Positions 3 to 42,957 of a stretch of 45,628 nt of DNA are shown here, piece after piece (position 1 is the first letter of the stretch; each line of letters opens with the position of its first letter). The position numbers and the translations under genes were made by a program. Under the pieces are notes generated by a model, which was not told where the DNA came from, did no database searches, and worked only from the letters and a program-made list of their open reading frames with translations. Location of the stretch: assembly GCA_947447625.1 (NCBI GenBank), contig CANFKS010000020.1, positions 1-45,628 of the forward strand, given 5' to 3'. The stretch comes from Rhodospirillales bacterium (GTDB taxonomy: Bacteria; Pseudomonadota; Alphaproteobacteria; Acetobacterales; Acetobacteraceae).

Positions 3-500
3 TACAACCAGGCCAGCACCCGCCCCGCCGTCGCATCCCGGTTCGGCCTCAGCGACTCCGTCGATCACGAGGAGATCAAGCGCTTGCGGGACATGTTCCC
101 CGGCAAGCTGCTGGTCAAAGGCATCATGCACCCCGATGATGCCCGCGCCATGCTCGCCCTCGGCGCCGACGGCATCGTCGTCTCCAATCACGGCGGCCGC
201 AACCTTGATGCCGCGATGGCAACCTTCGACGCCCTGCCCGGCATCGTCCAAGCCGTTGGCGGCAAAACCACCATCATCGTCGATTCCGGCATCCGCCGCG
301 GCCTCGACATCATCAAGGCCCGCGCGCTGGGCGCCGACGCCGTGCAAACCGGCCGCGCCACCCTCTTCGGCGCCTCCGTCGGCGGCGAAGCCGGCGTCTC
401 CCGCGTGCTCGAACTCCTGCGCCACGAACTCACAACCGGCATGGCCAATTGCGGTGTCCGCACCATCGAGGAGATCACCCGCGATCTCCTCGCGCCGTAG
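3..500 (+). CDS. FMN-dependent alpha-hydroxy-acid dehydrogenase (L-lactate dehydrogenase type), 3' part
   Basis: C-terminal 165 residues of a TIM-barrel flavoprotein that oxidises L-2-hydroxy acids (lactate, mandelate or glycolate) to 2-oxo acids; the start lies outside the window. Seen directly: the active-site motif SNHGGRNLD, whose His codon is at 189-191 (the base that abstracts the alpha proton), and DSGIRRG near 285-305, the loop that binds the FMN phosphate, followed by GADAVQTGRA. The frame is open from the first complete codon at position 3. The TAG stop at 498-500 is formed by the left end of a dispersed repeat. Substrate cannot be assigned from this fragment. A respiratory L-lactate dehydrogenase (LldD) is the commonest role for the family. 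Confidence 0.9.
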   Translation, partial: YNQASTRPAVASRFGLSDSVDHEEIKRLRDMFPGKLLVKGIMHPDDARAMLALGADGIVVSNHGGRNLDAAMATFDALPGIVQAVGGKTTIIVDSGIRRGLDIIKARALGADAVQTGRATLFGASVGGEAGVSRVLELLRHELTTGMANCGVRTIEEITRDLLAP

Positions 501-617
501 AGCCTGATGATTTTTGGCGGAATCGCCAAAAGTCTGAATCAGGCGATAAAACAAAGAGCGAGATCGGGGTGCCTTCGCCTATCAGAAGGCATCCCGATCT
601 CGTGCCCGAAGGCTCTA
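498..617 (-). repeat. Dispersed TAGAGC-ended hairpin element, copy A (inverted relative to the other copies)
   Basis: A 120-bp copy of the family also found at 26674, 38143 and 41808, here in reverse orientation. Ends are TAGAGC and GCTCTA. Two hairpins are visible: TTTTGGCG/CGCCAAAA at the left and a longer stem around ATCGGGGTGCC and its partner GGCATCCCGAT at the right. The left TAG is the stop of the dehydrogenase and the right CTA is the stop (TAG on minus) of the convergent amidase. It probably acts as a bidirectional terminator. Mobility as a MITE is inferred from the TA-flanked terminal inverted repeats. Confidence 0.85.
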
Positions 618-2312
618 ACGGCAGGAGGACAGGCCCGGCGGCATCCGCCGGGCCAGGGTCGCCTGCTCGAACCCATACGCAATTCGCAACAAAACCGCCT
701 CGCTCCACGCCCGCCCCGTAAACGTCGCACCCAGCGGCACCTCGGGCCCCTCGGTGCCGCCGATGAACCCGGCCGGCACCTGCACCGAAGGATATCCCGC
801 CTTGGCCGCGATCGAGGCCCCCGCTGTCCCCGGGAACAGCACCGCATCGAGGCGGTTCTCGTCCATATACGCATCGAGCCCCCGCGCCCGTGCCGCCCGC
901 ACATCATTCTCCCGCGCCGCCAGATACGCGATCTCCCGTAACGTCCCGCTCGTTGCATCCGCGGCCAGAAAGATATCCTGCCCAAACCGCAGCGCCCGAT
1001 CGGCATGCGCCGCGTTGAACGCCACGATATCGCGCATCGAGCGCATCGCGCTCCCCTGGGCCCAGTCCTGCAGATACAAATCGAGATCGTGCTTCAGTTC
1101 GTAGACAAACACGATCGACACCCGCGCCGTCCGGTTCAAATCCGCACTTTCCGGGTTCCGGTTGAGGATGAGCATGTCGGTGCCGGGTCCGCCGATCCAT
1201 CCCTCGGTCGGCAGGTTCTCCCGCACGATCACCGCGCCCGCATCCTGCAACGCCGCAATCGTGCGATCCATCACCGCCCGCGCCTGGTCCGACAGCCCGC
1301 GCCAATACACATCATTCGCCGGATCGGCCGGATTGCTCGGCACGCCGATACGCGCCCCGCGCAGCCCGTCTTTGTCCAGCGCGGCCATGAAATCGACCCC
1401 CTGCGGCGCCGCCGCCGTCGCCGGGTCGGCCGGATCGGGTCCGGCGAGCACGCCGAGGATCAACGCCGCATCGCGCACCGTCCGCGTCATCGGCCCGGCC
1501 GTATCCTGGCTCGCCGCAATCGGGATGATGCCGGCCCGGCTGATCAGTCCGACGGTTGGTTTGACGGTGACAATCCCATTCTGCCCGGCCGGCGACAGGA
1601 GCGAGCCCGAGGTCTCCGTGCCGATCGAGGCCGCGGCAAAGCCGGCCGCGACGGCGACCGCGGAGCCCGCACTTGAACCGCCCGGTGCTACGATGGGCAC
1701 CCCCATGGCATCGAGTGCCGGAGCATGGGCATTGCGCACCTGCCCCCCGAGCGAGGAGTAGCCGGACGGCATGCCGACGGCGAGGATGTTGGCGAATTCG
1801 GTGAGGTTCGCCTTGCCGAGGATCACGGCGCCGGCCTGGCGCAGCTTGGCTGCCACGGTCGCGTCGCGCTGGGCGAAGGCATCGGCAAGAGCGAGCGCGC
1901 CGGCGGTGGTGTGCTGGCGATCGCCGGTGGCGATATTGTCCTTCAGCAGGATCGGGATGCCATGCAGCGGCGGCAATTTGCCGCCCGTCTTGCGTGCCGC
2001 GTCCTGCGCACCGGCGATGGACAGCGCGTCAGGGTTGATTTCACGCACCGCGTTGAGCGCGGGGCCCGCGCGGTCGAGCGCTTCAATGCGCGCGAGATAG
2101 GCGCGCGTCAGATCGGCAACCCCGATGCGCCCGGCGGCAAGGTGGTCCTGCAGGTCGGTGACGCTGGCGTTGTCGATGCAGACTGCGGGCGGCGGGGTTT
2201 GTGGCATGGCGGCGGGCTCCGGAAAGGCGGGGGGAGGGGAGGGTGGCAGCGGGAGAGGGGCTACGGACAGTATGGCCGCGAGCAGGAGCCCCGCCGCAAT
2301 CCGGTCAGGCAT
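615..2312 (-). CDS. Amidase signature family hydrolase, predicted exported
   Basis: A 565-residue amidase that hydrolyses a carboxamide to acid plus ammonia or amine. The Ser-cisSer-Lys triad is visible: K124 in GIPILLKDNI, the GGSSAGSA loop at 211-218, and the presumed nucleophile S237 in GTETSGSLLSPA. A hydrophobic stretch at residues 6-20 followed by a Pro-rich segment looks like an export signal, so the enzyme probably works in the periplasm or at the membrane. The start chosen is the ATG at 2310-2312, which overlaps the stop of the upstream ammonia-lyase by 8 nt; this implies translational coupling. The gene ends in the TAG of repeat copy A. Without the repeat this frame would read TAC and run on, so the C-terminus may have been altered by the insertion. 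Third-codon-position base preference changes from C to G within the gene (around 1500-1750). Substrate unknown. Confidence 0.9.
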   Translation of the reverse strand: MPDRIAAGLLLAAILSVAPLPLPPSPPPAFPEPAAMPQTPPPAVCIDNASVTDLQDHLAAGRIGVADLTRAYLARIEALDRAGPALNAVREINPDALSIAGAQDAARKTGGKLPPLHGIPILLKDNIATGDRQHTTAGALALADAFAQRDATVAAKLRQAGAVILGKANLTEFANILAVGMPSGYSSLGGQVRNAHAPALDAMGVPIVAPGGSSAGSAVAVAAGFAAASIGTETSGSLLSPAGQNGIVTVKPTVGLISRAGIIPIAASQDTAGPMTRTVRDAALILGVLAGPDPADPATAAAPQGVDFMAALDKDGLRGARIGVPSNPADPANDVYWRGLSDQARAVMDRTIAALQDAGAVIVRENLPTEGWIGGPGTDMLILNRNPESADLNRTARVSIVFVYELKHDLDLYLQDWAQGSAMRSMRDIVAFNAAHADRALRFGQDIFLAADATSGTLREIAYLAARENDVRAARARGLDAYMDENRLDAVLFPGTAGASIAAKAGYPSVQVPAGFIGGTEGPEVPLGATFTGRAWSEAVLLRIAYGFEQATLARRMPPGLSSCR

Positions 2313-3465
2313 CGCCGACGAGGGCGTCGTACAGGGCAGGATCGGTGGCGCCCTCGGTGCTGAACAGCAGCACGCGGCTGTCTGCATCAAGTCCGAGCGC
2401 CTGACGCGCCGCCGGATCGGCGGCGGCGAGGAGCAGGGCTGCGAGGCCTGCCACACCGGATTCGCCGGCGACCATGCCGTGTTTTTTGAGCAGTATCATG
2501 CAATCGACCGCTGCCTCGTCGGGCACCGCCATGAAGCCGGCGGCGGCGCGGCCGAGTTCCTGCCAGGCGAGCAGGCTCGGTTCGCCGCAGGCGAGGCCCG
2601 CCATGATCGTGTCGAGATCGCCGGCGATGGCGATGGGTTCGCCGGCTTCGGCGCTGGCGAGCAGGCAGGCGGCGCGGTCGGGTTCGGCGACGATCAGGAT
2701 CGGCGCGGGGCGGAAGGCATGGCGCAGTTGCACGGAGACCGAAGCGGCCACACCGCCGACCCCGCCTTGGATGAAGACATGGGTGGGGGGTGCGCCGTGC
2801 CACTGGGAAATCGCTTCATCGGCCATCAGACGATACCCCTGCATGACGTCGACCGGCACCGTGGTGTAGCCCTCCCAAGAGGTGTCGGAGACGACGAACC
2901 AGCCGTGTTCGGCAGCGGCGCGGGCTGCAGCGCGCACGGCATCGTCGTAGGTGCCGGGGACGCGGCGGACTTCGGCGCCGTACTGGGCGATGGCATCGAC
3001 GCGGCCCTGGCTCACGGTTTCGTGAACGTAGATGACGCAGCGCGCGCCGAAGCGTTGTGCACCCCAGGCGACGGAGCGGCCATGGTTGCCGTCGGTGGCG
3101 CAGGTGACGGTGATCAGGGCGGTGGCCTCGGCGTAGGTCCCGCCGACGAGGTCGGCGGAGGTCGCGTTGGGGGCGATGCTGCGCCGCGCGAGTTCGGCGG
3201 CCAGCACCTGGCAGACCGCGTAGGCGCCGCCGAGGGCCTTGAAGCTGCCGAGGCCGAAGCGGCTGGCTTCGTCCTTGATGCGCAGCGTGCCGATGCCGGC
3301 GCTGGCCGCGATGGCGGGAAAGGCGCGCAGCGGGGTTTGGGCGTAGCCGGGCCAGGAGGTGATTTCGGCGCGGGCGCGGCGGTATCCGCCATCGGGCAGC
3401 ACAACGGTGCCGGGGGTGCCGGCGCGGGGGTTGATGAAAAGGCGGAAGGGGCGTGTTTTGATCAT
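2305..3465 (-). CDS. dpaL: Diaminopropionate ammonia-lyase (fold-type II PLP enzyme)
   Basis: 386 residues. Members cleave 2,3-diaminopropionate to pyruvate and two ammonia. Seen: the PLP lysine K76 in GSFKALGGAYAV; a TDGNHGRSVAWGAQRFGA segment typical of fold-type II lyases; VDVMQGYRLMADEA and a Gly-rich phosphate-binding GGVGGVAASV. These match the YgeX/DpaL branch better than threonine dehydratase. Start taken at the ATG 3463-3465 (MIKTRPFRLF), where homology begins; an in-frame ATG 75 nt upstream only adds a low-complexity Arg/Pro leader. First gene of a two-gene operon with the overlapping amidase. The pairing suggests that an amide or peptide of a diamino acid is hydrolysed outside the cytoplasm and the product deaminated inside (inference). 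Confidence 0.85.
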   Translation of the reverse strand: MIKTRPFRLFINPRAGTPGTVVLPDGGYRRARAEITSWPGYAQTPLRAFPAIAASAGIGTLRIKDEASRFGLGSFKALGGAYAVCQVLAAELARRSIAPNATSADLVGGTYAEATALITVTCATDGNHGRSVAWGAQRFGARCVIYVHETVSQGRVDAIAQYGAEVRRVPGTYDDAVRAAARAAAEHGWFVVSDTSWEGYTTVPVDVMQGYRLMADEAISQWHGAPPTHVFIQGGVGGVAASVSVQLRHAFRPAPILIVAEPDRAACLLASAEAGEPIAIAGDLDTIMAGLACGEPSLLAWQELGRAAAGFMAVPDEAAVDCMILLKKHGMVAGESGVAGLAALLLAAADPAARQALGLDADSRVLLFSTEGATDPALYDALVGDA

Positions 3466-25599: not shown

Positions 25600-26673
<1,074 letters not shown>

Positions 26674-26676
<3 letters not shown>

Positions 26677-26773
26677 AGCGGGATGCCTTCTGATTGCGAA
26701 GGCATCCCGCTCTAACTCTTTGTTTGATCGCCTGATGAGTTGTGGTGATTCCACCAAAAATCATCAGGCTCTA
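26674..26773 (+). repeat. Dispersed TAGAGC-ended hairpin element, copy C
   Basis: 100 bp. Left stem perfect over 15 bp: AGAGCGGGATGCCTT with AAGGCATCCCGCTCT. The right-hand hairpin is TGGTG-ATTC-CACCA, where copy A has GGCG/CGCC at the same place, so paired bases have changed together. Ends TAGAGC and GCTCTA. The left TAG is the stop of the ABC ATPase. Likely terminator for the operon. Confidence 0.88.
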
Positions 26774-38142: not shown

Positions 38143-38246
38143 TAGAGCGGGATGCCTTCTGATAGGCGAAGGTATCCCGCTCTAACTCTTTGTTTGATCG
38201 CCTGATTCAGATTTTTGGTGATTCCAGCAAACATCATCAGGCTCTA
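38143..38246 (+). repeat. Dispersed TAGAGC-ended hairpin element, copy D
   Basis: 104 bp, same orientation as copies C and E. Left stem AGAGCGGGATGCCTT with AAGGTATCCCGCTCT (one G-U pair). Ends TAGAGC and GCTCTA. Here it does not provide a stop codon: it lies between the promoter of the small gene and the 3' end of purA, whose TAA is 11 nt beyond the element. Probably terminates the hisZ-purA transcript. Confidence 0.88.
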
Positions 38247-38256
38247 GCGAGGCGTG

Positions 38257-39546
38257 TTACCCGTCGAACGGATCTTTCACCATGATCGTGTCGTCGCGTT
38301 CCGGCGAGGTGGACAGCAGCGTCACCGGCGCCTCGACGAGTTCCTCGATGCGGCGGACGTATTTGATCGCCTGGGCCGGCAGTTCCGCCCAACTGCGCGC
38401 GCCTCGGGTCGAGCCTGTCCAGCCCTCCATGGTTTCGAAGACCGGCAGCGCCCGGGCCTGGGCGCGGGGCGCGGCGGGAAGGCGCTTCACCATCTGCCCG
38501 TCGATCGTATAGCCAACGCAAACCTTGAGTTCCGTCAACCCGTCGAGCACGTCAAGCTTGGTCAACGCCAGGCCATTGATCCCGCCCACCTTGACGGCCT
38601 GGCGCACCAGGGCGGCGTCGAACCAGCCGCACCGGCGCGGCCGGCCGGTTACGGTGCCGAATTCGAAACCCCGCTCGCCCAGCAGCCTGCCGGTTTCGTC
38701 CGTCAGTTCCGACGGGAAGGGACCGGAGCCGACACGGGTGCAATAGGCCTTGGCAATGCCCAGCACGAAACCGATCGCGCCCGGCCCCACGCCGGACCCG
38801 GAGGCCGCAGTGGCGGCGACGGTGTTGCTGCTGGTGACGAAAGGATAGGTCCCGTGATCGACATCGAGCATCACGGCCTGGGCGCCTTCGAACAGGATGC
38901 GCTTGCCGCTGCGGCGGGCTTCGTCGAGGCGTTCCCACACCGGTTCGGCGTAGGGCAGGATTTGCGGCGCCAGTTCGAGCAGGCGGTCGAGCAGCGCCTG
39001 CTTTTCGAACGTCTCGGCCCCCAGGCCGGCAAGCAGGGTGTTGTGGTGGAGGAGGAGTTCGTCGAGCTTGTCGGCCAGGGTCTCGGGTTCGGCCAGGTCA
39101 GCGACGCGGATGGCGCGTCGCGCCACCTTGTCCTCATAGGCCGGGCCGATGCCGCGGCCCGTGGTGCCGATTTTGCGATCGCCGCGCGCGGTTTCGCGGG
39201 CCCGGTCGATGGCGGCATGCAGCGGCAGGATGAGGATGGCATTGTCGGCGAGGCGCAGCGTCTCGGGCGTTACATTCAGGCCCTGCGCCTTGACGCGGGC
39301 AATCTCGGCCAGAAGTGCCTCGGGGTCGACCACGAGGCCGTTGCCGATGATACCCAGTTTGCCGCGCACCAGGCCCGACGGCAGCAGCGAGAGCTTGTAG
39401 GTCTGGTTGCCGACCACCAGCGTATGCCCGGCGTTATGGCCGCCTTGGAAGCGGACGACGACATCGGCCCTGCTGGCCAGCCAATCGACAATTTTTCCTT
39501 TACCCTCGTCGCCCCACTGGGCGCCGATGACGGTGACGTTGGTCAT
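38257..39546 (-). CDS. purA: Adenylosuccinate synthase
   Basis: 429 residues, normal length. GTP-dependent ligation of IMP and aspartate, the first committed step to AMP. N-terminus [20 protein letters not shown] carries the GDEGKGK P-loop; then [45 protein letters not shown] and [11 protein letters not shown]. Start ATG 39546, six nt after the hisZ stop, so the two are co-transcribed. The hisZ-purA pairing recurs in related alphaproteobacteria. Terminated near repeat copy D. Confidence 0.98.
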
Positions 39547-40841: not shown

Positions 40842-41810
40842 ATGGACCTCGCCTCCCTCCGTCCCTTCGCTGGCCTCACGCTGCCCGAGGCCGCCATTCC
40901 CGAACTGCCCAACCGCTACCGAGGCAAGGTGCGCGAGAATTATGACATGCCCGACGGCAGCCGCGTGCTGATCGCGACCGATCGGCTCTCCGCGTTCGAT
41001 CGCATGATCTGCGCCGTACCCTTCAAAGGCCAGGTGCTGACCCAGACCGCGCGGCACTGGTTCGAGGCCACCGCCGACATCTGCCCCAATCACGTTCTGT
41101 CCTACCCCGACCCCAACGTGGTGCGTGCCCGCAAACTCGATATCCTGCCGGTCGAAATGGTCGTCCGCGGCTACCTCGCCGGCACCACCGGAACCTCGGT
41201 CCTGACGATGTACAAAAAAGGCCAGCGCGCCATGTACGGCGTGCGCCTGCCCGATGGGCTCCGCGACAACCAGCGCCTGCCGCACCCCATCCTGACACCC
41301 ACCAGCAAGGAATTCGACGGCGGGCATGACGCGCCGCTCACGCCGCACGACATCGTCGCCTCCGGCCTGCTCCCCCAGCCGATCTGGGACCAGGTGAGCG
41401 CCTACAGCCTCGCTTTATTCGCCCGTGGCCAGCAGATGGCCGCCGCAAGGGGCCTCATCCTGGCCGACACCAAATACGAATTCGGCCTCGACGCCGCAGG
41501 TTCCGTAATCCTGGCTGACGAAATCCACACGCCGGACAGCAGCCGCTTCTGGCGCGCCGCCACCTACGAGGCCCGCTTCGCTGCCGGCCAGCCGCCCGAA
41601 AGCTTCGACAAGGACGTCATCCGTCGTTGGATTTCCGCCCGCTGCGACCCCTACACCGACGACCTCCCCGCAATCCCGCAGGATCTCATCCTGGAGACCG
41701 CCCTGGTCTACATCCAGGCCTATGAAACCATCACCGCGCGCCGCTTCTTTCTGCCCGACGACCTGACCCCGGTGCTGGACCGGGTGCGCCGCAACCTGCT
41801 CGGTGCTTAG
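40842..41810 (+). CDS. purC: SAICAR synthase
   Basis: 322 residues, the longer form. Joins aspartate to CAIR in purine synthesis. Motifs: [52 protein letters not shown] and [14 protein letters not shown]. The start ATG at 40842 is the first after a divergent region. The TAG stop (41808-41810) is the left end of repeat copy E. Excision of the element with one TA would leave TAG, so the insertion kept the protein intact. Confidence 0.97.
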
Positions 41811-41910
41811 AGCGGGATGCCTTCTGATCGGCGAAGCATCCCGCTCTCGCGCATTGTTTGATCGGCTGGTTCAGGTTTTGTGGCGGTTCCGACAAAATCA
41901 TCAGGCTCTA
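41808..41910 (+). repeat. Dispersed TAGAGC-ended hairpin element, copy E
   Basis: 103 bp. The most diverged copy: left stem has a one-base bulge (AGAGCGGGATGCCTT against AAGCATCCCGCTCT) and the right hairpin is weaker. Its left TAG is the purC stop and its right CTA is the stop of the alcohol dehydrogenase on the minus strand. The reconstructed empty site reads GCT-TA-GCT, in which both genes would stop on the same TA (TAG on plus, TAA on minus). Confidence 0.85.
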
Positions 41911-42957
41911 GCTGTCGATCAGAACCTGCCTGCCCGTGACGATGCCCGCCTCGAGGTCGTGCATGGCTGCGTTGGCCTCGGTTTTGGGCCGCTCGATGAT
42001 GAGCGACGGCTTGAGCTTGCCGGAGCGGGCGAGTTCGAGAACGTCGCGCAGGTCATTGAGCGAGCCGGTGAGGCTGCCTTGCACGGTCTGTGCCTTGAAG
42101 ATGGTGGCGGAGACGGACAGAACGATTTCGCCGCCGCCGATGCCGACGAGGATGAGCTTGCCGCCCTTGGGCAGGACCGCCATGCCGGTATTGGCGGTGA
42201 TGTCGTTGCCGACAAAATCGATCACCGCGGCGATCGGCACCGGCAGCGCGAGAAGCTCCGCCTTGGCCGCCTCGTCGCCATCGACAGCGAGGCTTGCGCC
42301 CGCGGCGAGCGCGGCGGCCCGCTTCTCGGCGCTGGTGTCGATCACCACGATGGCCTGGTGACCGAAGGCCTTCAACATCGCGATCGCGGCATGGCCGAGG
42401 CCGCCGGCGCCGATCAGCACGACGGGCTGGTCGGAGCGGAGCGGCCCGATCTTGCGGATCGCCGAATAGGTCGTGATCCCGGAGCAGGCATAGGTGGCGG
42501 CCAAGGATGCAGGGATGCCGCTGTAGTCGAGCAAATAGCGCGGATGCGGCACCTTCACCTGACGGGCGAAGCCACCGTTGAGCACCGCGCCGAGGCTGCG
42601 CTGGCGGGTACACAGATTGTCATCGCCGGTGGCGCAGCGCTCGCACGATCCGCAGCCGATCCAGGGATAGACGACGCGGCTGTCGCCGATCGTCACGCCT
42701 TGGGCTTGCGGGCCAAACGCAACGACGCGACCGACCATTTCATGGCCTGGCGCTGCCGGCAATTTCAGGCCTCGATCGGCGACCGAGAGAAACTTCCCGC
42801 CACCCATCTTGTAGCCGCCGTGCCACATGTGCAGGTCCGAATGGCAGACCCCGCAATGCGTGACTTCGACAACGACTTCGCTGCCGGTCGCGTGCAGATC
42901 CGGCAATTCCACGCATTCGAGCGGCGCCTTATGCGCCGTGATGGCCCAAACTTTCAT
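41908..42957 (-). CDS. Zinc-dependent alcohol dehydrogenase (MDR family, AdhP-like)
   Basis: 349 residues. Catalytic zinc: C38 in CGVCHSD, H72/E73 in GHEMVG, and C158. Structural zinc loop C102, C105, C108, C116 (GCGSCERCATGDDNLC). NAD-binding GAGGLG at 183-188. Oxidises an alcohol to an aldehyde with NAD+. GGGAGGA precedes the ATG at 42957. Stop from repeat copy E. Unusual insert GYKMGGGKFLSVADRGLKLP between the zinc motifs, as in some formaldehyde- or aromatic-alcohol-linked members. Substrate unknown. Confidence 0.9.
   Translation of the reverse strand: MKVWAITAHKAPLECVELPDLHATGSEVVVEVTHCGVCHSDLHMWHGGYKMGGGKFLSVADRGLKLPAAPGHEMVGRVVAFGPQAQGVTIGDSRVVYPWIGCGSCERCATGDDNLCTRQRSLGAVLNGGFARQVKVPHPRYLLDYSGIPASLAATYACSGITTYSAIRKIGPLRSDQPVVLIGAGGLGHAAIAMLKAFGHQAIVVIDTSAEKRAAALAAGASLAVDGDEAAKAELLALPVPIAAVIDFVGNDITANTGMAVLPKGGKLILVGIGGGEIVLSVSATIFKAQTVQGSLTGSLNDLRDVLELARSGKLKPSLIIERPKTEANAAMHDLEAGIVTGRQVLIDS

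Follow-up and report, generated by a model that had tools for sequence, protein, structure and literature searches.

The short repeat that recurs in the window, here the whole analysed stretch of 45,628 nucleotides from a Rhodospirillales bacterium, is very probably a non-autonomous MITE of the IS630/Tc1-mariner type, ~104 bp long, that targets YTAR and restores the stop codons into which it inserts, with selection acting on insertions elsewhere. An IS630-type transposase would cut the element out and paste it at YTAR, and a TAA or TAG stop at the target would become a TAG at the element edge, at one end or at both. Selection would purge insertions in genes and promoters, and those in stop codons and at other 3′ positions would persist. 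The insertion edges, Y-TA-G and C-TA-R, again read YTAR, so that new copies could insert beside old ones and build up arrays. Target choice combined with selection against harmful insertions is the best account of the pattern, and probably no role is needed beyond self-propagation at a cheap site.

Four members of one family, with TAGAGC...GCTCTA ends and two hairpins, lie in the window (Table 1). Direct reading of the copies at 26674-26773, 38143-38246 and 41808-41910 reveals that each starts with TAGAGCGGGATG, ends with CATCAGGCTCTA and contains two hairpins, as stated in the preliminary description. The same ends had been given for the copy at 498, where alignment to the consensus instead places the decayed right end at ~602 and leaves the GGCTCTA at 611-617 outside the copy. 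The TAG at 498-500, the intact end of this copy, is the stop of an FMN-type ORF ending at 500, and ORF ends likewise agree with the earlier assignment of element TAGs as the stops of the ABC ATPase (26676), purC (41810) and the dehydrogenase (41908), the last encoded by a minus-strand ORF (41908-42957) that we take to be zinc-type alcohol dehydrogenase-like. The amidase, assigned to the same group, does not belong there: its stop at 615-617 is flanking DNA, which explains why it was the one gene expected to read through on removal of the element. The 41808-41910 copy gives stops to two convergent genes, with TAG 41808-41810 serving purC (+) and TAG 41910-41908 the dehydrogenase (-). The gene nearest the 38143-38246 copy on the minus strand (38257-39546) has its own TAA, 13 bp off. 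An Rfam search of the window gave 0 matches.

Table 1. Element copies, their hairpins and the adjoining genes in the window
Feature	Position	Strand	Basis
Inverted, partly decayed element copy; intact left end, right end lost at ~601-603	498..602	-	Alignment to consensus
100-bp element copy at a TTAG target; ABC ATPase stop at TAG 26674-26676	26674..26773	+	
A hairpin (TAGAGCGGGATGCC...GGCATCCCGCTCTA), TA on both borders	26674..26714	+	Fold; terminator-like match, tail TCTTTGTTTG
B hairpin, ending CATCAGGCTCTA	26730..26773	+	Read from sequence; fold
104-bp element copy at a TTAG target; intergenic, no stop supplied	38143..38246	+	
103-bp element copy at a TTAG target	41808..41910	+	
ABC transporter ATPase gene, element at its end	25600..26676	+	ORF; Pfam ABC_tran
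purC (SAICAR synthetase) gene, element at its end	40842..41810	+	ORF; Pfam SAICAR_synt
Alcohol dehydrogenase-like gene, zinc-type (presumed name), element at its end	41908..42957	-	ORF
Amidase-like ORF; stop 617-615 outside element	615..2456	-	ORF; consensus alignment of 498 copy

The gene-less ~104-bp repeat with two hairpins is a real family. A genome-wide search, of the kind proposed in the preliminary description but made with two exact 12-base end motifs, found 207 occurrences of one and 161 of the other in the 197 contigs of the host assembly (4,276,057 bases); their reversed forms, used as a control, occur 0 times, and the repeat is therefore not due to chance. Scoring of 40 of the 339 candidates revealed a minimum of 20 copies that match the 104-bp consensus throughout (100% identity); this consensus folds at -59 kcal/mol (z -10.9). 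The element length of ~100-106 bp is too little for a transposase gene, and a 48-bp palindrome consisting of the B part only stands alone three times in one sample. An end-motif survey of 60 genomes (the host and 59 relatives) found 207 TAGAGCGGGATG ends in the host, 3 to 6 in each of four same-genus genomes and 86 in G022, which belongs to another genus; these counts indicate that the family multiplied in the host lineage and, as a separate event, in G022. The G022 version, 105 bp long, follows the same two-hairpin plan with different stem letters (CCTTC/GAAGG, for instance, replaced by ACGTC/GACGT). A pattern scan of a wider contig collection with a perfect A hairpin yielded 0 matches, and a second contig scan, with purC, gave lake Rhodospirillales bins as the nearest relatives.

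Several host (G000) contigs, such as C131, C102 and C193, terminate in or near tandem element arrays; the assembly is probably interrupted by such arrays, whose number is hence underestimated. An IS candidate at C18:5691-6938, suggested by facing end motifs 1.25 kb apart, turned out to be two decayed copies flanking a short-chain-dehydrogenase-like gene. In an Acetobacteraceae bin (L176, ~4984), the 3′ end of purC reads TAGAGC and leads into an imperfect hairpin (GAGCAAT...ATTGCTC) that may be distantly related to the element.

Sampling yielded 126 element-like stretches, of which 45 have both exact ends and 42 remained once three near segment edges were set aside; the other 81 are decayed, nested or one-ended. 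A separate count gave 61 bounded units, or 43 with tandem neighbours removed. The earlier proposal of a TA target is sharpened to TA within YTAR, found in 39 of the 42 cleanly bounded copies and in 13/14 bounded copies of G022, compared with 10.6% of the non-coding TA sites in the same DNA as the 42 copies. The TA duplication on which the preliminary description had staked the mobility of the element is present: the sampled DNA holds 13 tandem junctions, each with a single shared TA and 0 with two. The 4-mers across both ends are identical in just 14/45 copies, which rules out a 4-bp duplication in favour of the 2-bp TA. All 13 junctions are head-to-tail. If inverted neighbours, which would make ~200-bp palindromes, are unstable, a head-to-tail bias would be expected.

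YTAR holds TAA or TAG read from either strand, and the first base of the element is G on both strands, so that insertion into a pyrimidine-preceded TAA or TAG stop gives TAG at the element edge. Because the target is itself a stop triplet on both strands, most targets would already have been stops by sequence, before selection. An in-frame TAG is given to at least one gene by 21/42 copies, covering 25 gene ends, with four copies serving both convergent neighbours; the restored pre-insertion triplet is TAA or TAG at 24 of these 25 supplied stops and not at the remaining one. Called genes contain none of the 42 copies. The gene calls rest on a home-made score of codon usage, for which this DNA was the training set, and thresholds of 30, 50 and 80 bits gave the same direction of stop excess.

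Overlap with stop codons is above the expectation for non-coding target sites. In the element-centred sample, 18/39 YTAR copies are at stops, compared with 8/124 free YTAR sites (8 stop, 116 intergenic). Since this sample was centred on copies, the count was repeated on the four largest contigs (C1-C3 plus 60 kb of C4), where 10/25 element stretches (11/25 under a looser rule) are at stops against 24/156 free non-coding YTAR sites (p 0.006). The preliminary description held that copies are tolerated as their ends restore a stop, and set this view against an overlap no greater than chance; the excess on these contigs speaks for it. A nearly element-free sample of the sister genome G003, with one element-like stretch in 396,134 bp, provides a baseline of 43/243 non-coding YTAR sites being stops, from which the 10/25 of the host also differs (p 0.012). 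In G022, 8/14 bounded copies are at stops. Occupancy of non-coding YTAR was 18/45 at stops vs 22/176 elsewhere in a 475-kb sample of six stretches, which include the window and C18, neither blindly chosen and the latter picked for copy richness. If decayed copies are counted leniently, with a stop allowed up to 8 bases away, 18/40 are at stops in this sample; a limit of 1 or 3 bases gives 16/40. Exact-ended copies alone gave 5/11 (p 0.02), and with the window and C18 as the sole control, the pooled stop test gave p 0.06.

The occupancy contrast, drawn at equal target sequence from a sample with two element-rich contigs, could also arise if the transposase, over and above its YTAR preference and the effect of selection, were actively attracted to stops or to the 3′ ends of genes; as selection could give the same pattern in these counts, we regard such attraction as quite unlikely. 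Tentatively, and with rather less than even confidence, the stop codon may be viewed as a safe harbour, in which YTAR and the TAG-inward termini make pyrimidine-preceded TAA and TAG stops near cost-free on both strands, and for which the termini may be selected. Were this so, copies could part convergent genes with interlocked stops, each gene keeping a TAG, and the niche would be partly filled, as the same occupancy suggests.

In the usual view, bacterial transposons owe their survival to insertion into intergenic DNA. In the present case, the target together with the element ends turns stop codons, including shared stops of convergent genes, into usable sites, which amounts to a simple rule on the sites at which elements that target TA last in genomes rich in G+C, where TA is rare in genes. 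It also sets a trap for automatic gene callers, the TAG of the element being the real stop. A term search of a MITE review (PMC10969869) found no mention of stop codons in the text covered, and in the passages of the literature searched (including PMC6382973), a stop-codon landing rule was not found stated.

A called gene is present on both sides of 34/42 insertions. Neighbours are convergent at 15/34 copies vs 5/60 free intergenic YTAR sites and divergent at 3/34 vs 21/60; this preference for convergent and avoidance of divergent positions is expected if promoter insertions are lost. The convergent excess and the strong hairpins would also suit retention of the copies as bidirectional transcription terminators, the role proposed in the preliminary description, and of two window copies scanned, one (26674) has a terminator-like A hairpin with a T-rich tail, detected on a single strand. 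The scan of the 41808 copy gave no match, the T-rich tail is on the A side only, which faces the gene in 8/21 cases, and a 3′ location is equally expected from selection alone. The proposed retention thus finds little favour and is improbable. A directional terminator role was rejected, as the stop-supplying end is A in 8 cases and B in 13 (p 0.38), with no orientation bias; it is possible that the A hairpin acts as a one-direction terminator.

Copies appear to sit at old gene ends, because orthologues that lack the element mostly end within ≤3 codons of the same point. All four same-genus purC orthologues (G001-G004) end +2 to +3 codons away, and the closest ABC ATPase orthologue (80% identity) ends +1 codon away with TGA, the element being absent in each; the other ABC ATPase rows, ~51-58% identical, are probably paralogues. 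For three genes on C103, the orthologues of g2 stop at the same codon (4/4), the one orthologue of g3 ends -1 codon and that of g1 (L257) -9 codons. At L216, the end codon is the same in 7/7 genomes at site 1, and at site 2 it is the same in 4/7 and -1 in 3/7. A blastn search (E ≤ 0.01) of 22 loci from relatives detected no copy. The empty sites anticipated in the preliminary description are thus found at the gene level, with the element absent; base-exact empty sites were not reached at ~80% identity, the relatives being ~75-80% identical and too far for base-exact alignment. In L264 (G060:C5, ~3018), the stop of L216 site 2 is a TAG that leads into another kind of hairpin element (ATCATGATGCG...), which seems to have inserted into this stop independently.

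IS630-family elements that carry the left end TAGAGCGGGATG are present in G022 and G019, with 12 shared bases in L236, L244 and L249 and 13 in L237, and this common terminus substantiates the IS630-type affiliation put forward in the preliminary description. L237, 1054 bp long with ends TAGAGCGGGATGC / TAGAGCATGATGC, matches NCBIfam transpos_IS630 at 1e-40 and L247 at 8e-47, both being DDE_3 by Pfam. Both ends were read in six IS630 elements; the flanks, known for five, are CTAG in four and TTAA in one. Tenzen and Ohtsubo are said to have found in 1991 that IS630 prefers the TA in CTAG. A Rieske-like open frame ends in L236, as does one of 468 codons in L248. The host has seven DDE_3 (IS630-type) matches, several of them cut by contig ends (197 contigs), around which no matching end pair was found, and an intact IS630 with GAGCGGGATG/GAGCCTGATG ends was not found in the host assembly. 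The predicted transposase with matching ends therefore exists in the related G019 and G022, with none intact in the host assembly, where the partner may be lost or hidden in gaps. At position 1407 on the reversed strand of L249 (G022:C81), an IS630 left end stands exactly where the A hairpin usually starts, directly following the B half of a mini-element with its linker.

Short, high-copy, extragenic palindromes could also be of the REP type, mobilised by a tyrosine transposase (RAYT). The element is two-ended, with a TA duplication and terminal inverted repeats, features that to our knowledge REPs lack, which renders this origin highly improbable. RIME/ABC elements of rhizobia, too, are ~100 bp long with two palindromes. 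RUP of Streptococcus pneumoniae, a MITE of IS630-Spn1, is likewise ~107 bp and high-copy with IS630-like ends, but differs in sequence and host, and no stop-codon niche is described for it in the passages drawn on (PMC3049150). IS630 and ISY100 of the Tc1-mariner family also duplicate TA, according to the passages cited (PMC2170065), and are autonomous, whereas the element here carries no gene. MITEPsy1 of Pseudomonas syringae, likewise 100 bp, targets CTAG or YTAA but, as described in the part of the source used, duplicates 4 bp and is tied to an IS5-type element (PMC3189936), as opposed to the 2 bp duplicated here.

A host IS5-type element, L128 (G000:C44, 1409-2250; 842 bp, split reading frame; IS5 family by NCBIfam, 1e-40), has MITE-like ends (TAGAGCGCGTTG, TAGAGCGCGTTGACA). 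Its TAG is the stop of a 469-codon DEAD-box-like ORF, so the stop-codon niche is used by more than a single family. IS711 belongs to the IS5 family. In the passages cited, IS711 and the Bru-RS palindromes of Brucella likewise show YTAR with a duplicated TA, and IS711 prefers palindromic repeats (PMC2266754). These likenesses could assign the MITE to an IS5-family (IS427/IS711-like) element rather than to IS630, but L128 matches it at 9/12 end bases, compared with 12-13 bases for IS630-type elements; an IS5-family partner, set aside on this weaker match, is unlikely. In G019 (C1, L131), a 42-bp palindrome with TAGACCGTGATCACC ends adjoins an IS5-type element just before the IS end, and represents another TA-ended repeat family.
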